The translations under genes were made by a program, and so were the position numbers. The notes beneath the pieces were generated by a model. That model worked only from the letters and a program-made list of their open reading frames with translations. It was not told where the DNA came from and ran no database searches. This document shows, piece by piece, positions 24,493-62,758 of a stretch of DNA of 64,000 bases. Within the stretch, counting starts at the first letter, position 1, and the number at the start of each line of letters is the position of its first letter. Source of the DNA: Phycicoccus sp. Root101 (GTDB lineage Bacteria; Actinomycetota; Actinomycetes; Actinomycetales; Dermatophilaceae); assembly GCF_001426245.1 (NCBI RefSeq), contig NZ_LMCM01000007.1, positions 1 through 64,000 on the forward strand, read 5' to 3'.

Positions 24493-25761
24493 GTGACCGA
24501 CGCCGATCACGAGGTCGAGGACCTGCTGCGCACCCTGGCGCCGCAGGTCCTTGGTGCCCTCGCGCGTCGCACGGGTGACTTCGACGCGTCCGAGGACGCC
24601 GTCCAGGAGGCGTTGATCGTCGCGGCGGACCGGTGGCCACGCGACGGCATACCCGAACGTCCGCGCGGGTGGCTCCTGCAGACCGCGCAACGAAAGCTCG
24701 TGGACCACTGGCGCAGCGACGACGCGCGGCGGCGGCGCGAGCGCCTCACCACCGCCCGCGAGGTGGTCGGTGGCCCCGAGGTCGTCAACCACGACGACAC
24801 CCTGACCGTGCTCCTCCTGTGCTGCCACCCCGCCCTCACCCCCGCGTCCGCCATCGCGCTCACGTTGCGTGCCGTCGGTGGCCTGACCACGGCGCAGGTC
24901 GCGAGCGCCTTCCTGGTGCCCGAGGCCACGATGGCGCAACGGATCAGCCGGGCGAAGGCAACCATCCGCGCGGCCGGTGCCACCTTCGAGGAACCCGGCG
25001 CGGAGGAGCTGCCGCAGCGGGTGCGTTCGGTGCTGCGCGTCCTCTACCTGGTGTTCAACGAGGGGTATGCCGCGAGCAGCGGGGAGGGCGTGCACCGCAC
25101 CGACCTCACGGACGAGGCGATCCGCCTCACCCGCGCCGCCCACCGTCTGCTGCCCGCCGAGCCCGAGGTGACGAGCCTGCTGGCGCTCATGCTGCTCACC
25201 GACGCGCGCAGGTCGGCGCGCACCACCCCGGCGGGCGACCTGGTGCCCCTCGCAGAGCAGGACCGCCGACTGTGGGACCGGGACAAGATCCGCGAGGGGA
25301 CGGCACTCCTCGACGGGACCCTGGGTGCGGGAAGGGGGTTCATCGGCGAGTACCAGGTGCAGGCCGCCATCGCGGCCGTCCACGACCGCGCGGAGAAAGC
25401 AGCCGCCACCGACTGGCCGCAGGTCCTCGCCCTCCAAGGGATGCTCGAGGACCTCACGGCCAACCCGCTGGTGACGCTGAGCCGGGCCGTGGCGACCGCG
25501 AACGTCCACGGACCCGAGGCAGGTCTCGCTGTTCTCGACGGCCTCGGGGAACGGCTCGACGGGTCCCACCGGTTCGACGCCGTGCGGGCCCACCTGCTGG
25601 AGCTGGCCGGATGCGACGAAGAGGCGGCCGCGGCATACCGAAAGGCGGCCGCGCGCGCCACGAACCTCCAGGAGCAGCGCCACCTCTCGGCCCGGGCGGC
25701 GCTCGCCGCGCACCGAGCGCCGGCACCGCGGCTCGACCGCGTGGCGCACCGCACCGACTGA
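24493..25761 (+). CDS. ECF42-group RNA polymerase sigma factor with long C-terminal extension
   Basis: 422 residues, about twice the length of a simple ECF sigma. The sigma-2 region includes VQEALIVAADRWPRDGIPERPRGWL. The sigma-4 helix-turn-helix is in GGLTTAQVASAFLVPEATMAQRISRAK. The remaining 230 residues are helical repeats (NEGYAASSGEGVHRTDLTDEAIRL, LLALMLLTDARRSAR), as in ECF42 proteins, whose extension takes the place of an anti-sigma factor. It is encoded directly after a DGPF gene, which is the defining neighbourhood of the group. Confidence 0.88.
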   Translation: MTDADHEVEDLLRTLAPQVLGALARRTGDFDASEDAVQEALIVAADRWPRDGIPERPRGWLLQTAQRKLVDHWRSDDARRRRERLTTAREVVGGPEVVNHDDTLTVLLLCCHPALTPASAIALTLRAVGGLTTAQVASAFLVPEATMAQRISRAKATIRAAGATFEEPGAEELPQRVRSVLRVLYLVFNEGYAASSGEGVHRTDLTDEAIRLTRAAHRLLPAEPEVTSLLALMLLTDARRSARTTPAGDLVPLAEQDRRLWDRDKIREGTALLDGTLGAGRGFIGEYQVQAAIAAVHDRAEKAAATDWPQVLALQGMLEDLTANPLVTLSRAVATANVHGPEAGLAVLDGLGERLDGSHRFDAVRAHLLELAGCDEEAAAAYRKAAARATNLQEQRHLSARAALAAHRAPAPRLDRVAHRTD

Positions 25762-42213: not shown

Positions 42214-42236
42214 CGTGAACTCCTCATCGAGTCGGT

Positions 42237-42271
42237 GTTAGCGCTAACGCTGTGCAGAAGTTAGCGCTAAC
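42237..42271. promoter_or_regulatory. Two LacI-type operators upstream of araB
   Basis: GTTAGCGCTAAC occurs twice (42,237-42,248 and 42,260-42,271). Each is a perfect 12-bp palindrome with the central CG typical of LacI-family sites. The centres are 23 bp apart, about two helical turns, so two dimers could bind the same face. They lie between araB and the lacI-type gene, so the regulator most likely represses araBDA and the transporter. Confidence 0.9.
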
Positions 42272-42377
42272 ACCGCCCTGCGTGTCAAGGGTTTCGCTCG
42301 AACTTCCCGTCGAGCGAGGTGGACGAACACCTCGGGGGCGACGGCTCGGACGCCGCTCGGACCCTTCCGCAGAGGGC

Positions 42378-51630: not shown

Positions 51631-51678
51631 GCCCCTCGTGGTGGAGCCTGAGGACACGCAGGCCCCACCACGAGGGGC
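51631..51678. terminator. Hairpin between hybrid kinase and convergent HTH gene
   Basis: A perfect 14-bp stem (GCCCCTCGTGGTGG and its complement) with a 20-nt loop, lying between two converging genes. No clear U-tract. It could act as a two-way terminator. Confidence 0.6.
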
Positions 51679-58851: not shown

Positions 58852-58920
58852 GGCCGATCACGCCGGTCAGGCCGATCACGCCGGTCAGGCCGATCACGCC
58901 GGTCAGGCCGGTCAGGCCGA
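58852..58920. repeat. 18-bp tandem repeat at the purM 3' end
   Basis: Three complete copies of GGCCGATCACGCCGGTCA (58,852, 58,870, 58,888) plus a partial, changed fourth that includes the purM stop codon. Copies are almost perfect, suggesting recent expansion and a possible length polymorphism between strains. Confidence 0.85.
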
Positions 58921-60027
58921 GGGGTGGTCCCCGACGACCTGCACCGAACCACCGTCGACGCCCTTGGCCCCGTGGACGACCTCGACGCCGTCGGCGATCG
59001 CAGCTCCCTCGAGGTCGCTCACCTCACCGATGGCCCACGCCGGTATGCCGCGCGCGGCGAGCTCCCGGGTCGCCGCGTCGACCTGGTCGGCCGGGAGCAT
59101 GGCGACGAAACCGACCCCCATGTTGAGGGTGCGTTCGAGGTCGGCGCGGGGGACGCCACCGAGGCTGCCGACGGTCGAGAAGACGGCGGGCGGGGTCCAG
59201 GTGGAGCGGTCCAGCCTGGCGAAGACGTCGCGGGGCAGGACGCGCGCGAGGTTCGCGGCGAGCCCACCACCGGTCACGTGCGAGAGGGCGTGCACGTCCA
59301 CGCCGTCCGTGCGGATGAGGTCGAGCAGGTCGGCGGAGTAGACGCGGGTCGGGGTGAGCAGCTCCTCCCCCAGCGACTGCCCGAACTCCTCGACGTGACG
59401 GTCGAGCTGCCAACCGGCCGCCCCGATCACCTTGCGCACCAACGAGTACCCGTTGGAGTGCAGCCCGCTCGAGCCGAGGGCCAGCACGACGTCGCCGGGA
59501 CGCACCCGGTCGGGACCCAGCACGTCGGCATGCTCGACGACCCCGGTCGCGGCACCTGCCACGTCGTACTCGTCGGGCTCGAGCAGTCCGGGGTGCTCCG
59601 CGGTCTCGCCGCCCACGAGGGCGACCCGGGCCTGCTCGCACGCTGCGGCGATGCCGGAGACGATGGCTGCGATGCGCTCGGGGACCACGCGTCCCGTGGC
59701 GATGTAGTCGGTCATGAACAGCGGCTCCGCGCCACAGACCACGATGTCGTCGACGACCATGCCGACCAGGTCGAACCCGATGGTGTCGTGGCGGTCCAGC
59801 GCCTGGGCGATGGCGACCTTGGTGCCCACGCCGTCGGTGCTCGTGGCGAGGACCGGGCGGGTCATCCGCGCGATCGCGCTGGCGTCGAACATGCCCGCGA
59901 ACCCGCCCAGGCCGCCCAGCACCTCGGGGCGGGTGGCCCGACGGACCGAGGCCTTCATCAGCTCGACGGCCTTGTCACCGGCCTCGACGTCGACGCCGGC
60001 GGAGGCATAGGTGATCGGTTCGCTCAC
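58912..60027 (-). CDS. purM: Phosphoribosylformylglycinamidine cyclo-ligase (AIR synthetase)
   Basis: 371 residues. Motifs: ITYASAGVDVEAGDKAVELMK, VLATSTDGVGTKVAIAQALDRHDTIGFDLVGMVVDDIVVCGAEPLFMTDYI, VALVGGETAEHPG and VLALGSSGLHSNGYSLVRKV, all typical of PurM. It forms aminoimidazole ribonucleotide in purine synthesis. Normally next to purF; here the two are separated by the inverted-repeat cassette. Confidence 0.97.
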   Translation of the reverse strand: MSEPITYASAGVDVEAGDKAVELMKASVRRATRPEVLGGLGGFAGMFDASAIARMTRPVLATSTDGVGTKVAIAQALDRHDTIGFDLVGMVVDDIVVCGAEPLFMTDYIATGRVVPERIAAIVSGIAAACEQARVALVGGETAEHPGLLEPDEYDVAGAATGVVEHADVLGPDRVRPGDVVLALGSSGLHSNGYSLVRKVIGAAGWQLDRHVEEFGQSLGEELLTPTRVYSADLLDLIRTDGVDVHALSHVTGGGLAANLARVLPRDVFARLDRSTWTPPAVFSTVGSLGGVPRADLERTLNMGVGFVAMLPADQVDAATRELAARGIPAWAIGEVSDLEGAAIADGVEVVHGAKGVDGGSVQVVGDHPSA

Positions 60028-60059
60028 GCGGCCAGCCTAGCCCCCGCACCGCTCCCCCC

Positions 60060-60108
60060 CGTTCGAGGTATTCGCCTACCGGGATGCGGTAGCCGAATAC
60101 CTCGAACG
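60060..60108. repeat. Inverted-repeat terminus, left copy
   Basis: An imperfect palindrome: CGTTCGAGGTATTCG, one mismatch, CTACCG, a 4-nt loop, and the complement. It is almost identical to the reverse complement of the right copy, with 25 bases (from GTTCGAGGTATTC) perfectly shared. It lies 32 bp upstream of purM. Each copy alone can fold into a hairpin, and the two also form terminal inverted repeats of the segment 60,060-61,209. Confidence 0.85.
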
Positions 60109-60210
60109 GATGGAGGGCGCCCGTCCACAGGGGGGTCAGGCGGTGCCGTGGCCTCCACAGCTCGTCGGTGCAGGCCACTCCGCACGGGCTTCACGGGACA
60201 GCGTCGTCGC

Positions 60211-61194
60211 ATGACCACGGCAGACGTCCTGACCCCACGGACGACCGGCTGGCGGAGGAGTGCTGCCGCCCAGCTGCCCGACGCCGTCGATGGCGTCCTG
60301 TCCCGAGACCTGCTGGCAGGGATCGGCATCGACGACCGCATGATCCGTCGGGAGGTGTCTGCCGGACGCTGGCGCCTGCACGGCAGGCAGACCGTCGCCC
60401 TGCACACCGGCCCGCTGGGTCCCGGCGGCTGGCGACGACGGGCGGTGTGGGAGGTGGGCGTCGGGATCGCTGCCCTCGACGGGGTGAGCGCCCTGCAGGC
60501 GGCCGGCCTCACCGGGTTCGAGGACGCGATGGTCCATGTGTCGGTCAAGCACACCGCGGCAGTCCAACCCGTCGTAGGCGTGCGCGTGCACAAGCTGGCC
60601 CGGAGAGTCGAGGACGAGGTGATGACGCCGGGGGTGCCGAGAACCCGCCCGGCGCTGGCCGCGGTGCGAGCTGCCCGATGGGCCACCAGCGACCGCCAGG
60701 CGGCGCTCCTCCTGGTGATGCCCGTGCAACAGCGCCTCTGCACCGGTGCCCAGCTGCTCGAGGCAGCCCACACGACCCGCGGGCGCACGCGCAGGCGGCT
60801 CATCCCGATGCTGGCACGCGACATCGCCCTCGGCGCAGAGTCGCTCGGGGAGCTCGACTTCGCCCGACTCTGCCGGAACCGTGGCCTGCCGGAGCCGAGC
60901 CGCCAGGTCCTGCGCCACGGCGTGCGCGGACGGGTGTACCTCGACGTGGCGTGGGAGGACATCGGTCTCGCCGTGGAGATCGATGGCGCCGGCCACCAGA
61001 TGGGCTTGTCCGTGACTGACGACCACCTCCGCCAGAACGAGCTCGCCCTGACCGATCACACCGTCCTGCGCATGAACCTCGTCGGGCTGCGACTCGAGGA
61101 ACGGCGCTTCATGGACCAAGTGGTCACCGCCCACGCTCGGCTGAGCGTCGGCCACCTGCCTCGTTCGAGGTATTCAGCCACCAGATCCCGGTAG
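60211..61194 (+). CDS. AbiEi-like HTH fused to DUF559/Vsr-like nuclease
   Basis: 327 residues from ATG 60,211. The N-terminal part resembles the AbiEi antitoxin wing-helix (VLSRDLLAGIGIDDRMIRREVSAGRWRLHGRQTVAL). The C-terminal part is DUF559-like, of the Vsr/PD-(D/E)XK fold: GRVYLDVAWEDIGLAVEIDG (D and E of the active site), then DDHLRQNELALTDHTVLRMNLVGL. It is opposite to purF and purM in strand. Its last codons run into the right terminal repeat. The function is unknown; a DNA-cutting or repair-like activity is plausible from the fold. Confidence 0.75.
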   Translation: MTTADVLTPRTTGWRRSAAAQLPDAVDGVLSRDLLAGIGIDDRMIRREVSAGRWRLHGRQTVALHTGPLGPGGWRRRAVWEVGVGIAALDGVSALQAAGLTGFEDAMVHVSVKHTAAVQPVVGVRVHKLARRVEDEVMTPGVPRTRPALAAVRAARWATSDRQAALLLVMPVQQRLCTGAQLLEAAHTTRGRTRRRLIPMLARDIALGAESLGELDFARLCRNRGLPEPSRQVLRHGVRGRVYLDVAWEDIGLAVEIDGAGHQMGLSVTDDHLRQNELALTDHTVLRMNLVGLRLEERRFMDQVVTAHARLSVGHLPRSRYSATRSR

Positions 61195-61209
61195 GCGAAT
61201 ACCTCGAAC
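61163..61209. repeat. Inverted-repeat terminus, right copy
   Basis: Palindrome GTTCGAGGTATTCAGCCACC, a 7-nt spacer and GGTAGGCGAATACCTCGAAC, with a few mismatches. Its reverse complement matches the left copy. The nuclease gene's stop codon lies in this repeat. The distance to purF is only 10 bp. Confidence 0.85.
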
Positions 61210-61219
61210 CGGGGGAGTC

Positions 61220-62758
61220 CTAGGGGCGGGTGAGGGCGTCCGCGGCGCCGCCGCCGACACCCAGGGTCACCCCGTCGACGTCGAGGGGCAGGGTCTCGAA
61301 CAGGTTCTTGCCCAGCCGGCTGGAGTCGGGGAGCTCGAGCGGGTACTTGCCGGAGAAGCACGCGGTGCACAGCTGGTCGGCCGGCTGCTCGGTCGCCGCG
61401 ATCATGCCTTCCTCGCTGATGTAGCCGAGGGAGTCGGCGCCGATCGAGGTGCAGACCTCCTCGACGCCGATGCCGGTCGCGATGAGCTCCGCCCGAGTGG
61501 CGAAGTCGATGCCGTAGAAGCAGGGCCAGCGCACCGGCGGGCTCGAGATCCGCACGTGCACCTCGGCCGCCCCGGCCTCACGCAGCATCCGCACGAGGGC
61601 CCGCTGGGTGTTGCCGCGGACGATCGAGTCGTCGACGACGACGAGGCGCTTGCCCTTGATGACCTCGCGCAGCGGGTTGAGCTTGAGCCGGATGCCGAGC
61701 TGGCGGATCGTCTGCGACGGGGCGATGAAGGTGCGCCCCACGTAGGAGTTCTTCACCAGGCCCTGGCCGTAGGGGATGCCCGACTCCTGGGCGTAGCCGA
61801 TGGCCGCAGGTGTTCCCGACTCCGGCGTCGGCATGACCAGGTCGGCCTCGACGGGGTGCTCACGGGCCAGGGTGCGACCCATCTCGACGCGGGACTCGTG
61901 GACGCCGCGCCCGTTGATCGTCGTGTCGGGGCGGGCGAGGTAGACGTACTCGAAGACGCAGCCCTTGCGCGCGGTCTCGGCGAACCGCTGTGAGCGCAGG
62001 CCGTCCTCGTCGATGGCGATGAGCTCACCGGGCTCGACCTCGCGGATGAGCGAGGCGCCGACGATGTCGAGGGCGGCGGTCTCGGAGGCGACGACCCAGC
62101 CACGGTCCAGGCGGCCCAGGACCAGGGGACGGATCCCCTGCGGGTCGCGCGCGGCATACAGGGTGTGCTCGTCCATGAACACGAAGCAGAAGGCGCCCTG
62201 CAGCTTGGGCAGGATGTCCATCGCCGCCGCCTCGAGCGAACGGTCGGGGTCGTCAGCGAGCAGGGCGGTGACCAGGGCGGTGTCGGTCGTGTTGCCCCGG
62301 ACCAGCTCGCCGCCGCCGTGGGCGAACCCCTCCTCGGCGCGGGAAGCGACCAGCTCGCGCAGCTCGGCGGAGTTGATGAGGTTGCCGTTGTGGGCCAGGG
62401 CCACCGTCGACTCGGCGTGGCCGCCGAGGGTGGGCTGGGCGTTCTCCCACGTGGAGCCGCCGGTCGTGGAGTAGCGGCAGTGGCCGACGGCGAGGTGTCC
62501 GCGCAGGGAGGCGAGCGACCGCTCGTCGAACACCTGGGACACCAGGCCCATGTCCTTGTAGACGAGGATGCTGCGCCCGTCGGAGGTCGCGATGCCGGCC
62601 GACTCCTGCCCGCGGTGCTGCAGGGCGTAGAGGCCGTAGTAGGTGAGCTTGGCGACCTCCTCCCCGGGAGCCCAGACGCCAAAGACCCCGCAGGCGTCCT
62701 GCGGGCCCTTCTCGTTCGGAAGGAGGTCGTGCGTCAGCTGTCCGTCGCCACGTGCCAC
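61220..62758 (-). CDS. purF: Amidophosphoribosyltransferase
   Basis: 512 residues from GTG 62,758. A propeptide precedes the nucleophile Cys in DACGVFGVW (about residue 23); glutaminase motifs YGLYALQHRGQESAGI and AVGHCRYSTTGGSTW follow, and the PRPP-binding motif is in KRLVVVDDSIVRGNTQ. It makes 5-phosphoribosylamine, the first committed step of purine synthesis. An FGHSTASGxx-type site is absent, but all class II Gln amidotransferase motifs are visible. Confidence 0.97.
   Translation of the reverse strand: MARGDGQLTHDLLPNEKGPQDACGVFGVWAPGEEVAKLTYYGLYALQHRGQESAGIATSDGRSILVYKDMGLVSQVFDERSLASLRGHLAVGHCRYSTTGGSTWENAQPTLGGHAESTVALAHNGNLINSAELRELVASRAEEGFAHGGGELVRGNTTDTALVTALLADDPDRSLEAAAMDILPKLQGAFCFVFMDEHTLYAARDPQGIRPLVLGRLDRGWVVASETAALDIVGASLIREVEPGELIAIDEDGLRSQRFAETARKGCVFEYVYLARPDTTINGRGVHESRVEMGRTLAREHPVEADLVMPTPESGTPAAIGYAQESGIPYGQGLVKNSYVGRTFIAPSQTIRQLGIRLKLNPLREVIKGKRLVVVDDSIVRGNTQRALVRMLREAGAAEVHVRISSPPVRWPCFYGIDFATRAELIATGIGVEEVCTSIGADSLGYISEEGMIAATEQPADQLCTACFSGKYPLELPDSSRLGKNLFETLPLDVDGVTLGVGGGAADALTRP

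Follow-up and report, generated by a model that had tools for sequence, protein, structure and literature searches.

A palindrome-bounded gene for an AbiEi-like protein between purF and purM points to a possible selfish or REP-like DNA unit of a previously undescribed kind

Introduction

Between the purine genes purF and purM of Phycicoccus sp. Root101 lies a single gene enclosed by two inverted palindromes, and this arrangement raises the question of whether the gene and its palindromes form one unit and, if so, of what kind. An earlier note on the window (the whole stretch of 64,000 nucleotides analysed here) had proposed a self-contained cassette whose own nuclease may act on the palindromes, either a REP-like or mobile unit or a selfish nuclease. 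The natural standard of comparison is the REPtron, which consists of a RAYT (REP-associated tyrosine transposase) gene and its REPs (PMC2817692, PMC3733652). The genomic copy number of REPs is usually > 100, but REPtrons are also known in species without abundant REPs (PMC3733652), so that a high palindrome copy number is a typical rather than a strict feature. The main text of PMC3733652 describes REPs and tyrosine transposases and contains neither 'Actinobacteria' nor 'Vsr'. The comparisons reported here suggest that the palindromes belong to the lineage of the gene, and that the two together may represent an undescribed kind of selfish or REP-like DNA unit.

Results

Layout of the purF-purM locus

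The cassette gene P0001 (60211..61194, plus strand, 327 aa, with ATG at 60211 and the stop at 61192-61194) is antisense, as had been described, to both of its neighbours, of which purM (58912..60027, minus strand, 371 aa, GTG start at 60027) is the downstream and purF (61220..62758, minus strand, 512 aa) the upstream member of the purine gene pair. The palindrome upstream relative to the nuclease gene occupies 60059..60109 (51 nt with a 5-nt loop, arms CCGTTCGAGGTATTC.. and ..GAATACCTCGAACGG), and the downstream one occupies 61163..61209 (47 nt) and overlaps the last codons of P0001. These lengths bear out the two inverted palindromes of about 48 bp that had been reported at the gene ends, as do the 25 bases identical between them, GTTCGAGGTATTCGCCTACCGGGAT; as inverted copies the two match over 54 nt (60055-60108 against 61162-61215) with 91% complementarity. 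The reported spacing of 10 bp to the purF stop (61220) was likewise recovered, whereas the distance to the purM start codon is 31 bp and not 32.

Folded as single-stranded DNA, the upstream palindrome reached -25.6 and -29.1 kcal/mol on its two strands (z -10.5 and -10.9) and the downstream palindrome -17.7 and -19.5 kcal/mol (z -6.4 and -6.9), and in no case did any of 200 shuffles fold as well. A hairpin scan of the 64-kb window passed six hairpins at a score of 13, with the upstream palindrome at the top, and the downstream palindrome fell below this threshold and scored 11 by a slightly looser rule. The 12-base core was matched six times at ≤ 2 mismatches, against 1.21 expected and at most five in 100 shuffles, and its four exact matches all lie inside the two flanking palindromes. 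Calls of sigma-70-like promoters in 59900-61400 returned none. Elsewhere in the window, a palindrome at 42233-42275 (CGGTGTTAGCGCTAAC..GTTAGCGCTAACACCG) resembles a pair of LacI-type operators, and a further strong hairpin of 48 nt lies at 51631-51678 (GCCCCTCGTGGTGGAGCC...).

Domains of the P0001 protein

The PADLOC AbiEi model matched residues 25-196 of P0001 (60283..60798) with an E of 1.3e-4, over a winged helix and an AbiEi C-terminal-like domain. An AlphaFold model built from 10 sequences, the best of five with a mean pLDDT of 80.8 (49.8-68.9 for the other four; < 50 at residues 267-274), was used for a Foldseek search, which returned the AbiEi antitoxin 6y8q_A (E 5e-5) and Rv2827c 1zel_A (E 3.4e-3); among the best 50 of its 280 matches AbiEi-like proteins were present and a nuclease was absent. 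The predicted nuclease domain covers residues ~205-300 (60823..61110). It holds D245, E256, D258, G259 and H262, invariant in 10 aligned homologues as the block D...E-x-D-G-x-x-H, and the conserved acidic motif expected of a PD-(D/E)XK nuclease is thereby present in this family of 10 sequences; from the D245/E256/D258/H262 block we infer a PD-(D/E)XK-like nuclease role. The same block likens the protein to the DUF559 (PF04480) and MTES_1575 predicted endonucleases, of which DUF559 has the Vsr fold, but the Pfam matches of P0001 to both are sub-threshold (for DUF559, E 0.018 and 15.4 bits under a cut-off of 20.6), and DUF559 was matched at E ≤ 0.1 in two of the 10 family members. These weak matches were the only ones in the Pfam scan of P0001 and nine homologues, in which Transposase_17 (PF01797) and other transposase families were unmatched. 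The Pfam AbiEi models did not match P0001, and AbiEi_4 rose above its cut-off in one of four more distant homologues scanned. P0001 had no match in PHROGs and one weak, implausible match in NCBIfam, and a PDB sequence search with profile A1 gave weak matches alone, two of them to PvuRts1I (E 0.12-0.13). The AbiEi assignment is therefore better supported than the DUF559 assignment: of the two domains read from the letters by the earlier note, the AbiEi-like N-terminus held, and the DUF559-like C-terminus stayed below the Pfam threshold.

Matched flanks across the gene family

Homologues at E ≤ 1e-3 were found in 146 of the 186 genomes of the window's taxonomic family, and each of these genomes has one to seven divergent copies. 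From three rounds of searching 73 distinct loci were taken (31 + 40 + 2), after eight loci (L010-L017) had been removed as duplicates of genomes already counted. For the flank score, ≤ 350 upstream bases were compared in either orientation with 360 bases surrounding and following the gene end, and the highest-scoring local match was kept; the null was provided by 1500 random sites of the window, with a maximum of 20.0. The flank match exceeded this maximum in 65 of the 73 loci and the 99th percentile in 68, and stayed at or below the maximum in eight, while the same test applied 700-1100 bp further out gave ≤ 17.5 in 66 loci. By eye, without a count, most of the matched pieces are palindromes, whose types differ among lineages, and several loci (e.g. 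L026, L035, L042 and L111) carry tandem palindromes at both ends. An earlier control compared flanks across loci (972 pairs; mean 14.9, 95% at 31.5, maximum 127.5). Its outcome was much poorer, with p < 0.05 in 47 of 81 loci and p < 0.005 in none, but it was set aside and the random-site control was used, since palindrome types and sites common to many loci, as well as loci present in duplicate, inflate it.

Supportively, the second copy of the gene in the window's own genome (56% identical) is bounded by a matched pair of another palindrome, TTTGGGTGCCCAGACGG..., which indicates a rule rather than an accident. Across the order, profile A1 at E 1e-10 matched 56 of 297 genomes, of which 35 belong to other families. 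Among part of the matches listed, flanks scored > 20.0 in 28 of 35 further closer loci (9 from the same family, 26 from others) and in 13 of 20 distant homologues (29-35% identity; every one from another family within the order), with a downstream stretch 30 bases longer than that of the null, which is slightly favourable, and with some of the genomes closely related. The association of the gene with cognate palindromes, and its generality across the family, are thus well supported. The claim of a self-contained gene with its palindromes is strongly supported by the 65 of 73 loci above the null maximum, and most of the relatives examined have matched flanks rather than a gene without palindromes.

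Carriage of the gene as plasmid or phage cargo was considered and rejected, with no plasmid match and one match to a phage record. A 50% identical homologue lies at MT837139.1:3673-4542, in an unannotated 7.6-kb record labelled phage.

Palindrome type and gene lineage

Palindrome labels, taken from motifs picked by eye, were placed on a gene tree of 70 rows from which L100, L112 and L116 (broken genes) had been left out. The labels required 40 changes against a mean of 57.1 in shuffles, none of 200 being as low, and 21 changes in the 51 of 70 rows with a label on both sides; since near copies cluster anyway and lower the count, such clustering on the tree alone is no proof of co-evolution. A partial Mantel analysis was performed on 65 rows, the five weak-flank loci of the 70 having been dropped and the automatic palindrome extraction being poor in a few rows. 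With the other two regions removed, palindrome distance followed AbiEi-CTD distance with a partial r of 0.41 (0 of 500 permutations), and the corresponding values for the nuclease (0.22) and the winged helix (0.18) kept a signal in both. These results support the view that palindrome type changes with gene lineage, and that gene and palindromes go together across the family.

Apparent replacement of units at fixed sites

By clustering of the outer flanks, purF is the neighbour of 29 of the 73 loci (18 and 11 on the two strands), a share that is not a family-wide frequency because the sample leans to the close relatives of P0001. On the other side, purM was seen in 22 of the 29, and in the remaining seven it lay outside the 1.5 kb fetched or the contig ended. 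The 73 loci occupy 20 distinct sites, namely purF and nineteen others; ten of the nineteen hold at least two loci, and both strands occur at six of them. On the gene tree 23 site changes were counted, where the least possible is 18. In the window's genus purM was found in all 11 genomes, and seven have a cassette in the purF-purM gap. An empty site of the kind that the earlier note had proposed to look for in close relatives is provided by G140, in which 48 bp separate the purF stop from the purM start codon. G146 and G147 have other sequence and no cassette in the gap, and G145 has no cassette within 1.5 kb of purM, where the fetched stretch ended before purF. No target-site duplication was visible at purF-purM, where the gaps are too diverged for a firm negative.

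Other features were observed at this site. The G147 gap contains a 75-nt palindrome of another type (L075:2695-2769) without a cassette gene, and also a sequence that resembles FG-GAP-type repeats. A similar gene, membrane-protein-like by eye, lies just upstream of purM and reads against it in G139, G141, G144, G145 and G146 (L021, L078, L032, L073 and L076), beside a cassette or without one, and is missing in the window. At G143:C8:203843-204728 (L100) the gene is split by a frame change and both palindromes are kept, a decaying copy at the same site.

Comparison of the trees indicated exchange in place. The purF proteins of the window's genome (G000) and G138 are 99% identical (residues 74-512 compared), whereas their cassette proteins are 62% identical, lie on opposite strands and have different palindromes; the whole cassette thus differs beside a near-identical purF, and any exchanged tract looks short. 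The two trees conflict: by purF, G000 groups with G138 and G139 with G144, but by cassette, G000 groups with G139 and G138 with G144. When four purF sister pairs, chosen after both trees were known, were forced on the cassette data, each was rejected (p 7e-6 to 5e-46). In-place inversion as the main cause of the strand differences is disfavoured, since strand fits the cassette tree, with 5 changes, more closely than the purF tree, with 11. Over 28 loci, with L100 left out, cassette and purF distances were correlated (Mantel r 0.64, 0/2000), which points to much vertical descent beside purF, with replacements. Collectively, these sequence comparisons make it well supported that, at fixed intergenic sites and on either strand, one whole unit took the place of another.

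Solo palindromes

The 13-base arm occurs seven times in its own genome, four times in the flanking palindromes and three times elsewhere, each within a complete hairpin. The strict GAGGTATT pattern was found in six of the 11 genus genomes and in none of the other five, with no hit of the reversed-pattern control. G000 (5 copies, 2 in the cassette and 3 solo), G139 (4) and G143 (5) have a purF-purM cassette of that type, to which two copies belong in each, and G144 (3), G140 (1) and G141 (1) are without a cassette of that type. A looser BLAST search also found diverged copies where the cassette type is absent, at eight places in G144 and at some in G138 and G142. At the solo sites themselves the relatives differ: at L007 G138 has no palindrome and G147 one of a different type, near L002 G144 and G139 have a different type, and at L001 the palindrome is common to G143, one arm is present in G138, and no complete one occurs in G139, G145 or G146.

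A second type, TCGAAGAAG, was found in 13 of the 186 genomes, 12 of them in two genera, at 1-10 copies, with a reversed control of 0; the thirteenth genome (G023) and one copy in G063 resemble coding coincidences by eye. An identical 42-mer stands at three unrelated sites of G093, whose mutual similarity is confined to 45-60 bp. Both TCGAAGAAG arms are present on both sides (≤ 1 mismatch per arm) in six of 27 gene loci (28 matches minus L388, an assembly twin), and these are also the six that match the L101 protein best. Evidence against a tight link comes from G058 and G091, with four copies each and no gene so flanked. In a filled/empty pair of G064 and G058 the flanks are 96-97% identical and the difference amounts to ~75 bases including the palindrome, which fits insertion or deletion alike. 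No target-site duplication was visible in this pair either, so the target duplications that the earlier note had suggested looking for were seen at neither place. Its REP-like reading gains support from the solo palindromes and from the identical 42-mers at unrelated sites of one genome, and the five strict copies in the window's genome are far from the hundreds of unrelated places that it had named as evidence to the contrary.

Repeats of other kinds were met in the same genomes. The solo site L311 of G064 and many places in genus g27 hold a separate dispersed repeat of ~90 bp with dozens of matches, and similar letters stand beside L313 and L314. G057:C1 gave duplicate matches at a constant offset of 90,678 bp near the contig end. 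Transposition as the source of its identical genes at 24931 and 115609 was rejected; because the same 90,678-bp period explains the duplicate matches, the genes were read as an assembly repeat, probably an artefact.

Discussion

The reading we prefer, at a probability of roughly 55%, is that 60059-61209 is a self-bounded cassette whose protein recognises and cuts its palindromes and drives their copying. Such a unit would combine a cognate palindrome at each end with a single gene, whose product joins an AbiEi-like DNA-binding protein to a predicted PD-(D/E)XK nuclease. The AbiEi-like part would recognise the palindrome, and the nuclease would nick or cut it, either in duplex form or once extruded as a hairpin. 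If repair then drew on a copy that bears the cassette, the palindrome or the whole unit would spread, and the same repair process would keep both ends alike. The solo palindromes would be side products or remnants, a proposal already made for REP/RAYT units, and by this analogy the best explanation is that the cassette works like those units with an unrelated enzyme.

The analogy can be followed feature by feature. Like the RAYT/REPtron of the accessible literature, the unit has a single gene between two inverted palindromes (as in the 65 of 73 loci), gene and palindromes change together, orthologous units keep their site, the gene evolves faster than its neighbours, and palindrome copies occur elsewhere in intergenic DNA. 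Unlike the RAYT/REPtron, its protein is AbiEi-like and PD-(D/E)XK-like with no match to the HUH/tyrosine transposase family, the pattern searches here found 1-10 palindrome copies per genome, and the units occur in Actinobacteria, have many unrelated palindrome types and seem to replace each other at one site on either strand. As for the DUF559/MTES_1575 family, a palindrome partner was not found in the open-access literature searched. Vsr-like homing endonucleases offer a further comparison, in that short replacement tracts at a fixed site would fit homing, but the cassette is intergenic, in neither intron nor intein, and has full palindromes at both ends. A precedent for palindrome recognition is given by AbiEi, the antitoxin of the type IV AbiE system, which binds two inverted repeats in its own promoter according to the accessible text of PMC3985639. 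P0001 shares with AbiEi the winged helix and the C-terminal domain, and palindrome binding is proposed by analogy; unlike AbiEi, it has a fused C-terminal nuclease-like domain, its palindromes flank both ends and occur solo, and the gene fills the purF-purM gap with no room for a partner AbiEii gene.

The same precedent feeds the main rival, which combines autoregulation with ordinary exchange and which we consider unlikely, though well ahead of the other alternatives. Here the AbiEi-like part would be an autorepressor and the palindromes its operators, and a chromosomal nuclease, for example one of defence, would be swapped at a hotspot by ordinary homologous recombination, with nothing selfish or self-mobilising. 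The PADLOC match and the repression by AbiEi of its own promoter via two inverted repeats (PMC3985639, as far as its accessible text goes) speak for an operator, but an operator alone leaves the downstream copy unexplained, as well as the tandem pairs at both ends of L026, L035, L042 and L111 and the identical palindromes at unrelated sites without a cassette. The fast divergence and the exchange between conserved neighbours would suit a hotspot. Defence hotspots show both features too; against ordinary recombination, however, stands the pair of G000 and G138, in which the whole cassette differs beside a purF that is 99% identical and the tract looks short.

Much less probable is that the palindromes are bidirectional terminators or insulators, hairpins that stop the transcription of an antisense gene inside an operon and are unlinked to the protein. 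Their strong hairpins would suit this role, as would the several solo copies that sit, by eye, between convergent stop codons; but no T-run (intrinsic) terminator, a hairpin followed by a T-run, was called in 59900-61400, and a terminator needs neither a long sequence common to both gene ends nor a change of type with gene lineage. Least probable of all is a conventional insertion sequence of the DDE or HUH kind, which would have hairpin ends, move by cut-and-paste and duplicate its target: inverted ends do bound the gene, and the 20 sites and 23 site changes would fit, but the sole catalytic-looking motif is of the PD-(D/E)XK kind with no transposase family matched, plasmid and phage-record matches number zero and one, the one to seven copies per genome are divergent, and the hallmark duplication was visible neither in the diverged purF-purM gaps nor in the G064/G058 pair.

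Beyond the palindrome-cutting cassette itself, we put forward more tentatively, at somewhat short of even odds, that these cassettes form a new class of selfish units in prokaryotes, found widely across the order searched. In such a class an AbiEi-guided PD-(D/E)XK nuclease would recognise the palindromes at its own ends, convert or replace rival cassettes at fixed intergenic sites by short tracts, keep the ends alike and seed solo palindromes, and would have switched specificity many times. Made from antitoxin and restriction-enzyme parts, it would parallel REP/RAYT by convergence. A prior description of such a unit was not found in the open-access literature searched, and an account elsewhere is possible. 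If the proposal is true, REP-like palindromes arose a second time, alongside an unrelated enzyme, and many apparent AbiEi antitoxins and uncharacterised endonucleases would in fact carry a palindrome system, selfish or domesticated. The origin of a class of small palindromes in these genomes would be explained, and the family would illustrate how gene units can be exchanged in situ while the genes beside them stay nearly identical. Because protein and palindrome type are paired in so many natural combinations, recognition is open to direct test, and nucleases with long and varied sites could result.
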